64,000 nt of DNA from an uncultured Pirellulaceae bacterium (lineage in GTDB: Bacteria > Planctomycetota > Planctomycetia > Pirellulales > Pirellulaceae). Made by a program: the position numbers and the translations under genes. The DNA lies in NCBI GenBank assembly GCA_938083195.1, contig CALKCK010000007.1, positions 124,001 through 188,000 of the forward strand. The letters are read 5' to 3'. Positions 14,104-47,811 of this stretch are shown one piece after another (position 1 is the stretch's first letter; each line of letters begins with the position of its first letter). The notes beneath the pieces were generated by a model. That model had not been told where the DNA came from. It saw only the letters and a list, made by a program, of their open reading frames with translations, and did no database searches.

Positions 14104-14445
14104 TTAAATTGTAGGCCGTTTTCTAACTAGAGCGTTCGTGGTCATTTCGTTTCCGTACGTGCCGGTAAAGACATTCTTCAGATTATCCTTGATTCCAAAA
14201 GTGCACCCAGTAACCGGGCAACCACAATTTGCTGCAACTTTTTCTCTTAGCACATCCATCTCTTAATCGTTGTTGTTAAATACAAACCCCGGGCTGTTGT
14301 TAAAAAACATGACGGTTCCATGGCCCCGACTAGTTTGTGTATCTGCGTCTTCCTCGGTGTCAATCTTATCCTTAGCGGTGGCAGTGTGGGGAGTGAGCGA
14401 ACAGATCAAAAAGCAGCCTAAACAAAAAATGATGATGCGATTCAT
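14104..14445 (-). pseudogene. Decayed paralogue of the secreted cold-shock-like small protein
   Basis: The intact part encodes 60 residues (ATG at 14445, AGAGGAT ribosome site 6-8 bases upstream). It has a signal peptide (MNRIIIFCLGCFLICSLTP), then TQTSRGHGTV and FFNNS, matching the gene at 46301-46759. A TAA at 14263-14265 interrupts the frame. Beyond it the same frame continues for 52 more codons with recognisable homology (EMDVLREKVAANC then PVTGCTFGIKDN, against DMIGLLQQFAEIC then PTTGCTFEIIDI). The stop aligns with a serine codon, so TCA to TAA could explain it. The RNP1-like motif is also degraded (PGFVF versus KGFGF). It may still make the truncated peptide, but the promoter looks broken as well. 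Confidence 0.75.
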
Positions 14446-45257: not shown

Positions 45258-45938
45258 TCATAATTCGGAAGTCTTCCATTCCAAAATTCCCGTATGTCCA
45301 ATCGCGCCAACTGGAACTAACCAGTCACACATATCTAGAACGACGCCAAACTGTTCGGTTCTCGAAAATAGAACTCTTACTCGACGGGGATTTGACCTCA
45401 CGCTCTCTTCGATATTTGCCAACACTCGCCGAAGTGTTTTCCAACCAAATGGCTCATACATAAAAACTACGGTCACGTCGCTAAAATCGTAATCACAGGC
45501 ATCCCCTCGGACCACCTCGACCTCGGTCTTACGTCCTTTTAGAAGTGTTGCGTTATCATTCGCGATGTCAACCAGATCTTCTCGCAATTCAACACCAACT
45601 GATTTCTTAATGGGTTCCATACCGACACGACATATCACACGTCCTTTCCCACAACCGAGGTCAAGGAAAACGTCTTCAGCACCTAGGCCTAAATGATCAA
45701 TCATAGATTCAAGACTAGCGTAGTCCTGGCCTAGATATTTAATTCCATCACCTTCTGAGCCCAGTGAATTTTTGGATTCAGAACCGCCTACCGTTCGGAT
45801 TCCCAGGTTGCGATCACAGCGAAGATCGTTTGCCTTCGCTCGCCAAGAATGGCACTCACCCAAAAACGAACGCCAAATAACCTTTCCGGAATACTTTAGG
45901 TTTCGTGCAACGTAGCAACTCAATTTAATTGGATTCAC
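45258..45938 (-). CDS. Class I SAM-dependent methyltransferase
   Basis: A 226-residue protein. Motif I is VFLDLGCGKGRVICRVG (about 118), followed by SVGVELREDLVDIANDNA (acidic motif II) and VVRGDACDYDFSDVTVVFMYEPFG, where YEPF takes the place of the NPPY-type motif. The layout resembles small lysine or DOT1-like methyltransferases, but the target cannot be determined. GTG is the only upstream start seen; the conserved domain begins about residue 80, so a shorter product is possible. It stands alone on the minus strand. Confidence 0.8.
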   Translation of the reverse strand: MNPIKLSCYVARNLKYSGKVIWRSFLGECHSWRAKANDLRCDRNLGIRTVGGSESKNSLGSEGDGIKYLGQDYASLESMIDHLGLGAEDVFLDLGCGKGRVICRVGMEPIKKSVGVELREDLVDIANDNATLLKGRKTEVEVVRGDACDYDFSDVTVVFMYEPFGWKTLRRVLANIEESVRSNPRRVRVLFSRTEQFGVVLDMCDWLVPVGAIGHTGILEWKTSEL

Positions 45939-46152: not shown

Positions 46153-46300
46153 ACTCGTATCAAATTGAGACGATCATCGCAAAATGAGAGCGAATCGAAC
46201 TTAATCTCGATCGGATGACTACGTTTTCCAATGGCACACGCTTTGCATACTGATTGAGGGTCAAGATAGAACTACCTCCAACTACAGAGAATTTTTAATT
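46153..46300 (+). repeat. Upstream region shared with the inverted decayed copy at 14446-14573
   Basis: This includes an 18-base identical block (46153-46170) and conserved patches up to the start codon. The homology of non-coding sequence shows the whole transcription unit was duplicated, not only the coding part. Confidence 0.75.
46232..46247 (+). promoter_or_regulatory. Sigma-54 (RpoN) -24/-12 promoter
   Basis: TGGCAC at 46232-46237, a 5-base spacer, and TTGCA at 46243-46247 match the TGGCACG-N4-TTGCW consensus except for the G directly after TGGCAC. The spacing of the GG and GC dinucleotides is exact. The predicted start is near 46258, giving a 5' leader of about 43 bases before the ATG. 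No enhancer-binding-protein gene or sites are identified in the window. Confidence 0.8.
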
Positions 46301-46759
46301 ATGAACCGCATCGTCGTTTTTAGTCTAGCCTGCTTATTGATCTGTTCGCTCACTCCACTTAATGCCAATCAGCAGAATAAGACCGATGCGAAGGCCAACG
46401 CAGAAACCCAAACTAGTCGCGGCAATGGAACCGTCAAATTTTTTAATAACAGCAAAGGGTTTGGATTTATTAGCAACGATTCCGATATGATTGGGCTACT
46501 CCAACAGTTTGCAGAAATCTGCACTGGCCCGACTACTGGATGTACGTTCGAAATCATTGATATTTTAAACGGGTTACTGCCGGTCTGGAGTGGAAAAACC
46601 GAGAGTTCGACTGATGACGGAAATAGGACGTTGACAGTTTCGAGACTAGCTGAGGAATTCAGAGAGGGAGATCAAAGCAAATCAAATGAAAAAGAGGCAA
46701 CGCATAAGGCACAATCAAAATTCAAATCGGGAGCCGATTTGTCCAGCTCAGTCAATTGA
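46301..46759 (+). CDS. Small secreted protein with partial cold-shock-domain motif
   Basis: A 152-residue protein. A signal peptide (MNRIVVFSLACLLICSLTP, cleavage near LNA) is followed by GNGTVKFFNNSKGFGFISND (about 41-60). This matches the first two strands and RNP1 motif (KGFGFI) of cold shock proteins. The rest of the cold-shock fold, including RNP2, is absent. Instead there is a segment with CTGPTTGCTFEIIDI (two Cys, possible disulfide) and a charged Lys/Glu/Ser tail. Cold shock proteins are normally cytosolic RNA binders, so export is unusual. It is expressed from a sigma-54-type promoter, and a decayed inverted copy lies at 14104-14445. Function unknown. Confidence 0.85.
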   Translation: MNRIVVFSLACLLICSLTPLNANQQNKTDAKANAETQTSRGNGTVKFFNNSKGFGFISNDSDMIGLLQQFAEICTGPTTGCTFEIIDILNGLLPVWSGKTESSTDDGNRTLTVSRLAEEFREGDQSKSNEKEATHKAQSKFKSGADLSSSVN

Positions 46760-47181: not shown

Positions 47182-47811
47182 ATGAAAAGCACGCTCTGCC
47201 TCTTAATTTCACTCTTGTTTACTAGTGCCTATCAACCGACCGAAGACGGAATTAATCTACTTGCCAATGGATTAAAAGGCTGGAACGTTGCTAAATCAGG
47301 AGCATGGAAAATCGACGATGGCGTTCTTCATCCATCGGAAAAACCGGGCGGCTATATCTGGACCGAGAAGCCATATGAAAATTTTGAACTTTCGCTCGAT
47401 TATAAGACTTCCGAGAAATGCAACAGCGGGATCTTTTTTCGAACAGATCCTAAAAACCCAGTTCAAGGTGGATTTGAAATTCAAGTCGCATCGCACGGGC
47501 TTTACAGCGGCAAGCACATTGTCGGTTCTTTGTACGATGCACAATCACCCACCGAGTCGGCAGGGAAACCCGATGGCGAATGGAATAAAATGACAATCAG
47601 TTGCAACGGACCAAAAATCAAGGTCGTTCTTAATGGCAAAAATGTCTTAAATGCTAATCTCGATAAGTGGACCACTCCTAAACTAAATCCGGACGGAACT
47701 AAAAACAAGTTTAAAACAGCACTTAAAAAGTTACCACGTTCGGGAAATATTGGATTTCAGTACCACGGTCACCCCGTCTGGTTCCGAAACGTAGTGATTA
47801 AGAAAAAGTAA
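47182..47811 (+). CDS. Secreted DUF1080 (3-keto-disaccharide hydrolase-like) protein
   Basis: A 209-residue exported protein with a short signal peptide (MKSTLCLLISLLFTSAY). The DUF1080 jelly-roll follows: LLANGLKGWNVAKSGAWKIDDGVLHP, then YENFELSLDYKTSEKCNSGIFFRTDPKNPVQGGFEIQV, then GEWNKMTISCNGPKIKVVLNG and a terminal GNIGFQYHGHPVWFRNVVIK. DUF1080 proteins are lectin-like and some act as 3-keto-glycoside hydrolases; planctomycetes carry many. The gene stands alone. Whether this one is catalytic cannot be said. Confidence 0.93.
   Translation: MKSTLCLLISLLFTSAYQPTEDGINLLANGLKGWNVAKSGAWKIDDGVLHPSEKPGGYIWTEKPYENFELSLDYKTSEKCNSGIFFRTDPKNPVQGGFEIQVASHGLYSGKHIVGSLYDAQSPTESAGKPDGEWNKMTISCNGPKIKVVLNGKNVLNANLDKWTTPKLNPDGTKNKFKTALKKLPRSGNIGFQYHGHPVWFRNVVIKKK

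Follow-up and report, generated by a model that had tools for sequence, protein, structure and literature searches.

Is a small protein that appears, from its sequence, to be exported with little beyond the first hairpin of a cold-shock domain a genuine product, and what might such a protein do? The question is raised by a gene on a stretch of 64,000 nucleotides from an uncultured marine Pirellulaceae bacterium (the window), for which an earlier note made from the sequence alone had proposed a signal peptide, the start and RNP1 motif of a cold-shock protein, and a sigma-54 promoter. The open reading frame runs from ATG to TGA on the forward strand (46301..46759) and encodes a predicted exported mosaic protein of 152 residues. 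Its predicted Sec signal peptide spans approximately residues 1 to 23 (46301..46369, + strand; end estimated), of which residues 4 to 18 are the most hydrophobic 15-mer of the protein (mean Kyte-Doolittle hydropathy 2.66), and relatives have the same layout; this signal-like N-terminus argues against a cytosolic location. A lipoprotein reading based on an early cysteine was dropped by eye, as the hydrophobic segment continues past that residue. A polar linker leads from the hydrophobic stretch to NGTVKFFNNSKGFGFISND (module M1; 46424..46480, + strand), which corresponds to strands 1 and 2 of the cold-shock domain and carries the RNP1 motif KGFGFI on strand 2. Residues 42 to 61 align to positions 2 to 21 of the 66 positions of the Pfam model PF00313 (E = 7.3e-5), so that the first two elements of the earlier note are borne out, and the score of 23.0 bits lies below the curated cut-off of 27 bits for a whole domain. 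M1 is followed by module M6, a two-cysteine insert around GPTTGCTFEIIDIL (46481..46582, + strand), and then by a putative degraded C-terminal half of the domain with tail, SKFKSGADLSSSVN (46619..46756, + strand), which gave no significant cold-shock match when searched by itself and thus shows no recognisable RNP2 or strands 3 to 5. A divergent methyltransferase gene (45258..45938, - strand; PF08123, E = 1.6e-8) and a 3-keto-disaccharide hydrolase-type gene (47182..47811, + strand; PF06439, E = 6.8e-46) flank the gene and serve as locus markers.

Comparison to known structures points to the same family. The best PDB match of the window protein is a cold-shock protein (E = 0.0046), and the 12 distinct PDB sequences matched at E up to 0.1 bear the names of cold-shock proteins or of RNA chaperones belonging to the family, apart from the chimera 1B11 and one "nucleic acid binding protein". 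We take 1B11 (PDB 2bh8) to be a selected artificial protein that combines the N-terminal portion of CspA with an unrelated segment; it differs from the window protein in being artificial and not exported, and suggests by analogy that a cold-shock half may be completed by foreign sequence. Structure prediction, which the earlier note had recommended for the hairpin, does return strands at residues 43 to 47 and 54 to 58 within M1, next to helices at residues 61 to 73 and 82 to 92 within M6, but in a low-confidence model (the two models made are both poor, with mean pLDDT of 38.3 and 40.6).

The direct relatives of the gene (group A) tell more about what became of the domain. A protein search found matches in 5 of 99 related genomes, the window genome included, and the cold-shock domain of these relatives is, judged by sequence, split by the insert. 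This is cleanest in the 177-residue protein of genome G039 (L006), where the insert is followed by DLFRGSGALPGLIDEINEGDDVRFNTEVDQNEFGAP with recognisable later strands. Leaving the insert out raises the PF00313 score of this protein from 24.7 bits (positions 2 to 24) to 33.5 bits (positions 2 to 57). In a control with a profile made from 73 cold-shock domains at other loci, the insert-free form scores 47.3 bits, compared to 38.8 bits uncut, 29.6 bits for the hairpin part, and a mean of 27.6 and maximum of 38.8 bits when joined to 1000 shuffled tails. The L006 tail by itself has no Pfam match, and in a small set (the open reading frames of the collected loci) it matches a flavobacterial cold-shock protein best (E = 1.7e-4). 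The window protein and L006 align colinearly up to the last residue, the whole proteins being 41% identical over 178 columns. The earlier statement that the rest of the fold is missing hence needs correcting, since L006 keeps later strands behind the insert and the window tail aligns to the L006 tail in degraded form. Similarly, the two-cysteine segment is a recurrent feature in that its motif is present in five of the six group A proteins (the gene of the sixth is cut by a contig end) and in L020, but the cysteine pair is not universal, since a G003 copy reads LGGPTTGC where the window protein reads CTGPTTGC.

L020 (genome G008, of the same genus) combines a signal-like N-terminus and the insert motif with a whole cold-shock domain (51 bits), which shares 74% identity over 62 residues with a flavobacterial domain; by contrast, both full cold-shock genes in the window genome belong to the GTIKxLTDKGFGFI type. 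We infer that a Bacteroidota-like domain was captured, then split and partly lost. The likeness to the CspA/CspE/CspD type of PF00313 accordingly comes in degrees: the window protein shares strands 1 and 2 with RNP1, L020 and L006 minus its insert are recognisable over most of the domain, and the multi-unit proteins L010, L011 and L012 exceed the Pfam cut-off through summed hairpins. What sets the group apart from this family are the signal-like N-terminus, the insert after strand 2, the lost or degraded strands 3 to 5, the tandem hairpins and the sigma-54 site.

Group A members differ in hairpin number, with one in the window gene, in one G003 gene and in G039, two in G022 and G017, and at least three in the second G003 gene, itself cut by a contig end. 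Judged by what flanks them, the G022 and G017 genes occupy the locus of the window gene (a counterpart of the downstream hydrolase in G022 with 89% identity over 209 amino acids, and of the upstream methyltransferase in G017 with 78% identity over 148 amino acids), so hairpin number would vary at one locus. Throughout the six live members, with 1 to 3 copies each, every hairpin unit retains KGFG and VKFFN. The live group A members also keep signal-like N-terminus, hairpin and sigma-54 site together, a point that the earlier note had asked to check.

The putative sigma-54 promoter of the window gene, TGGCACACGCTTTGCA (46232..46247, + strand), lies 53 bases before the ATG and is an exact TGGCAC-N5-TTGCA (near-perfect in the words of the earlier note), the only one in the window. 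With one mismatch allowed, this pattern occurs 4 times in the window versus 0.99 times expected, a number that only 1 in 100 shuffles attained. Each live gene of group A (six in all) has a sigma-54 site matching at 10 or 11 of 11 positions and ending 49 to 53 bases before the start codon. The window genome encodes one RpoN (PF04552, E = 1.3e-60), without which the promoter claim would have fallen, so that the sequence provides both the -24 GG/-12 GC promoter and the rpoN gene of a predicted sigma-54-dependent gene. Further upstream we find a paired palindrome, TATCAAATTGAGA-N6-TCGCAAAATGAGA (46158..46189, + strand), which is presumably the site of an activator (enhancer-binding protein). It matches 18 of 20 positions of the consensus found upstream of related genes (TCTCA-N3-TGAGA-N6-TCTCA-N3-TGAGA), reaches a score seen in 0 of 300 shuffles and lies 43 bases upstream of the promoter's GG. 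The switch by an enhancer-binding protein that had been proposed earlier would thereby have a candidate site, and candidate activators may be among the 17 matches to the activator domain PF00158 in the window genome. However, this model also rings in 14 of 14 control genomes, so only strong matches count, of which there are 12 (above 160 bits).

To what extent these upstream elements are common property was evaluated on 27 upstream regions of genes that had been collected by protein similarity. Of these, 25 contain a GG-N10-GC site that matches in no fewer than 8 of 11 positions, the exceptions being a decayed paralogue (see below) and a remnant, and the score of this site is reached in at most 5% of 300 shuffles for 21 regions; the six that are not significant at 0.05 are the paralogue, the remnant, L108, L112, L158 and L180. 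The paired palindrome reaches at least 14 of 20 positions in 26 of the 27 regions and a score attained by at most 2% of 300 shuffles in 26 of 27, though this score is partly circular because the consensus was drawn from some of the scored genes; L180 (G224) has no convincing palindrome and L178 (G234) a weak one. With L180, the paralogue and the remnant set aside, the distances from palindrome to GG cluster at 43 to 45, 54 to 55 and 113 to 116 bases (single cases at 94, 132 and 173), and the first two clusters are one helical turn apart. A palindrome scan over the window genome gave 14 matches, or 11 distinct sites after merging of both-strand duplicates, versus 2 in a reversed control, while an earlier, stricter pattern gave 10 matches versus 5 in the control. 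With the window gene and its paralogue excluded, the two scans yield 14 distinct sites, and within the stretches examined 4 of these face a plausible sigma-54 site (L128, L131, L119 and L141 on contigs C19, C20, C21 and C67, respectively); these are possible further members of the same regulon, and it seems likely from such sites that the regulon of the window genome extends beyond the collected group genes. The genes behind the four sites include one for a 135-residue protein with a signal-like N-terminus.

Among published layouts, that of the PEP-CTERM/Prs system (PrsR/PrsK) comes closest, with mostly single genes for exported proteins that are preceded by a conserved activator motif, then a spacer and the sigma-54 site, and with a motif 1 that ends in TTTACA and was seen in Proteobacteria only (PMC1569441). 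The genes described here differ from it by their paired TCTCA-N3-TGAGA palindrome; TTTACA does not occur in positions 46158 to 46231, and five group proteins compared to NCBIfam matched no PEP-CTERM model. Sigma-54 regulons that include planctomycetes have been predicted earlier, and that study names cold shock proteins (COG1278) once among sigma-54-linked genes, in a passage with no description of exported forms, and its text lacks the word "secreted" (PMC12316311). A literature search covering few of the subscription journals found no paper on a cold-shock domain with a signal peptide in Planctomycetes, nor on three of the module strings.

How far does the group extend? A group A profile matched 12 of 241 family genomes (rows from G118 and G143, which are ordinary cold-shock proteins, and from G038, which is unrelated, were set aside) and newly added L020 as well as long proteins of the genus g94 with two to three hairpins and other repeats. 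A profile of these long proteins also matched 12 of 241 genomes, including a 528-codon frame in the window genome (L148); the VRKKPG-module profile matched 17 of 241, two of them weak and set aside (the rows dropped as weak are G158, G256 and one of G228, C2). Altogether, group genes, not all with both upstream elements, occur in 16 of the 241 family genomes and 3 of 68 genera. A phylum-wide search of 392 genomes with the joined modules minus the hairpin matched 4 genomes and found group genes only in that of the window, the other three matches being a tube protein (G401) and two weak ones (G540 and G092). In each of the 26 group proteins collected, the first 40 residues include a 12-residue stretch with mean hydropathy of at least 2.08, so that no homologue without a signal-like N-terminus came up, and a module matrix sorts these proteins into at least four backbones that have short modules in common. 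These sequences suggest that the window gene belongs to an undescribed group of exported mosaics assembled from short pieces of unrelated families under one common switch. The planctomycete family suspected in the earlier note is thus real as a lineage-restricted entity, but it is wider than cold-shock-derived proteins and comprises mosaics of several fragments with a common upstream site.

To assess the specificity of the modules, patterns written from the group proteins were run against the other six-frame segments of the collected loci (606,580 residues). M6 and M8 were absent from this background; M3 occurred once, in the same G223 gene (L167), and M4 twice (the example shown is L167), while the single M5 match was in an unrelated protein. 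M2 had five occurrences (in L167, in the tube protein L197 and three others), M7 had 7, with the cases shown being ordinary cold-shock ends, and M1 had 92. Group D (L147-L150, L175-L178, L180, L185, L186 and L221) is a conserved protein of approximately 440 to 560 residues with SYGMRAVTLISMG and HNRTLDYLTPD stretches, and its members carry VRKKPG, FPP, NHNSTRSN and IPGID modules in differing numbers. Among viral contigs, a weak scan with only two near-identical peptide patterns found no relative of profile A3, and single plasmid records matching M3 with its following stretch, or FPP repeats with one M5 copy, at E of about 4 are noise.

Several modules resemble parts of known protein families. 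M1 is an N-terminal and M7 a C-terminal piece of the cold-shock domain. The signature of Flp pilins is M4 (AIEYGLIAALM), with E-values of 8.1e-8, 5.6e-7, 9.2e-7, 3e-4 and 0.0029 in five proteins, one of which lies just above the Pfam cut-off (L110, 32.4 versus 32.2). M2, GDDKVVRKKPGRTTFANITLKR, is 67% identical over 24 residues to the G401 protein, which is itself a contractile-injection tube protein (PF06841, E = 9.9e-43). When a profile of eight tube proteins from environmental plasmids was run on the 26 group proteins and 130 decoys, the best 14 hits were group proteins, all at M2, and the first decoy ranked 30th; by itself, however, the match is significant only for L151 (E = 9.9e-4 at Z = 100,000, over 61 residues including M2), with the other 13 hits at E of 0.86 to 240. 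The NCBIfam tube model matches L151 at E = 0.011 over residues 223 to 282, after M2. In this protein of G026, which has a signal-like N-terminus, the 61-residue tube-like stretch (residues 196 to 256) lies beside two Flp signatures and a cold-shock C-terminal piece. M3, NNDPIPGIDIIVERD (in L147-L150), resembles the first strand of tube proteins, DPLxxFxFxVEIDG, and precedes M2 as in the parent; the tube profile gives it a negligible 1.5 bits at most. No known parent was found for M3, M5 and M6 searched alone or for M8 scanned inside the group D proteins L147 and L175; when seven module pieces were searched individually, Pfam gave none and NCBIfam a single match (E = 0.2). The VRKKPG profile had no match in the PDB, and no phage relative of the tube protein was found. 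Compared to Flp/Fap pilins (PF04964) and tube proteins (PF06841, TIGR02241), the group proteins contain the short signatures AIEYGLIAAL and GDDxVVRKxPGxxxxxNITL as pieces of approximately 12 to 24 residues (61 in L151), mixed with other modules behind signal-like N-termini, while a whole Flp/Fap or tube domain is absent; the window protein has neither fragment. Reading the pilin and tube pieces as captured fragments hence rests on matches of some 12 to 24 residues.

Together, these findings lead us to an explanation that we consider fairly probable: a few Pirellulaceae genera have exported mosaic proteins, built from fragments and switched by sigma-54 and the palindrome, in which the hairpin is an extracellular binding or assembly element. 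Short signature fragments (of a cold-shock domain, an Flp pilin, a contractile-injection tube and modules of unknown origin) would have been captured behind a signal peptide and then duplicated and shuffled. Sigma-54 RNA polymerase and an activator on the paired TCTCA-N3-TGAGA palindrome probably switch the group genes on together. In the branch of the window gene, a Bacteroidota-like cold-shock domain would have been captured and split by the two-cysteine insert, its second half being lost while the first hairpin stayed under selection and underwent tandem duplication in relatives. Protein modules normally move as whole domains, and here pieces of approximately 12 to 60 residues that resemble cytosolic, pilus and injection-machine proteins seem to have been assembled, with the cold-shock hairpin showing selection on its own. 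The group would thus allow sub-domain shuffling in bacteria to be put to the test and hints that planctomycetes have a sigma-54 regulon of unknown purpose. It also offers a natural system for asking what half a cold-shock domain does outside the cell. The claim for the wider group rests on short matches, and its strangeness therefore outruns its mechanism.

Selection on the hairpin was gauged from codon changes. In the two cleanest comparisons, which were chosen for this purpose, the window hairpin shows 4 synonymous and 0 nonsynonymous changes relative to the G003 copy L005, and 10 and 1 relative to the first G022 unit. The signal peptide, linker and insert show 31 synonymous and 67 nonsynonymous changes in the same comparisons, hence the hairpin differs significantly from the rest (14:1 versus 31:67, p = 6.5e-6; G022 by itself, p = 4.8e-4), keeping in mind that the two comparisons are not independent because the window branch is common to both. 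The hairpin is the most constrained part in these two segment-by-segment comparisons. Less clean hairpin comparisons to the window gene give synonymous:nonsynonymous ratios of 4:5 for L006, 8:5 and 8:4 for the units of L011, 5:4, 4:4 and 5:3 for those of L012, and 6:3 for the second G022 unit, and the 45 pairs of group A units total 242 synonymous and 171 nonsynonymous changes. Since only about 18% of random single changes in the hairpin segment are expected to be synonymous, all of these comparisons lean to conservation, and the existence of relatives that keep the hairpin with a synonymous excess makes the window hairpin more than a chance resemblance.

What is being conserved could be nucleic-acid binding, with the RNP1 hairpin or hairpins of a predicted exported protein holding extracellular DNA or RNA in a biofilm matrix. 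Selection that is strongest on the hairpin in the two segment-wise comparisons and the KGFG and VKFFN motifs in every unit of live group A members speak for this, and the aromatic and basic residues conserved in group A would lend themselves to binding of nucleic acids or another polyanion, so that the activity is possible for the window branch. However, strands 3 to 5 of a cold-shock domain normally complete the nucleic-acid-binding face, and in the window protein they appear degraded. Moreover, RNP1 is altered in two of the three hairpin-bearing g94 proteins (KGFGVS, KDFGVS, KGFGIS, KGFRIS and KGSRIS), and M1 is absent from group D, group E and three of the six group C proteins (one of these a 5' piece only), even though groups D and E have the same upstream elements. 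Nucleic-acid binding is thus not the common function of the group, and as a full account of these proteins it seems to us rather doubtful. Rather than a cytosolic RNA chaperone, we favour a module for binding or assembly outside the cell, and our guess at the role of the hairpin is a small binding or assembly element that most likely acts outside the cytoplasm, at the surface or in the matrix.

A secreted-peptide precursor, whose modules would be released by cleavage at basic sites such as VRKKPGR to serve as signals, might account for the near-identical tandem units (a period of 90 bp with 98% matches in L012 and of 84 bp with 95% matches in L108), for the VRKKPG motifs repeated in several proteins and for the predicted export; yet the window protein has no VRKKPG motif, and we find this improbable. 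We give similarly little credence to the idea that the proteins are exported mimics that display signature peptides of other bacterial machines (cold-shock hairpin, Flp core and tube loop) under one sigma-54 activator, be it as decoys or assembly poisons against the pili and injection systems of neighbours or as epitopes for host recognition.

That the gene is merely decaying, a functionless chance fusion of a signal peptide to a broken cold-shock gene, would fit the degraded C-terminal half, the mostly nonsynonymous changes in signal, linker and insert, and the presence of a pseudogene paralogue in the same window (14104..14445, - strand), with an in-frame TAA, a damaged M1 and loss of the -24 GG. 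But this paralogue has 1 synonymous and 6 nonsynonymous hairpin changes relative to the window gene and a damaged promoter, compared to the 14 and 1 of the window hairpin against its two relatives, the synonymous excess over 45 unit pairs, and the promoter and palindrome kept in live copies, and we regard decay as very improbable. The paralogue ends in ALVRKRPTI, much as the G003 copy does, and a second sign of gene decay is a 36-codon family remnant with traces of the palindrome in G003 (L026, contig C95).

Finally, that the gene encodes an ordinary cytosolic cold-shock protein whose start codon has been misplaced is scarcely credible despite the typical hairpin motif, given that there is no in-frame ATG between residue 1 and the motif, that no whole domain follows, that relatives keep the N-terminal segment, and that 73 of 78 other loci (L029-L106) pass a simple whole-domain filter, unlike the window protein. 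The remaining five contrast loci are whole by eye or cut short, and a loose hydrophobicity filter upstream of the motif is passed by 3 of the 78, two of them ordinary by eye and the third, the alanine-rich L086, ambiguous.
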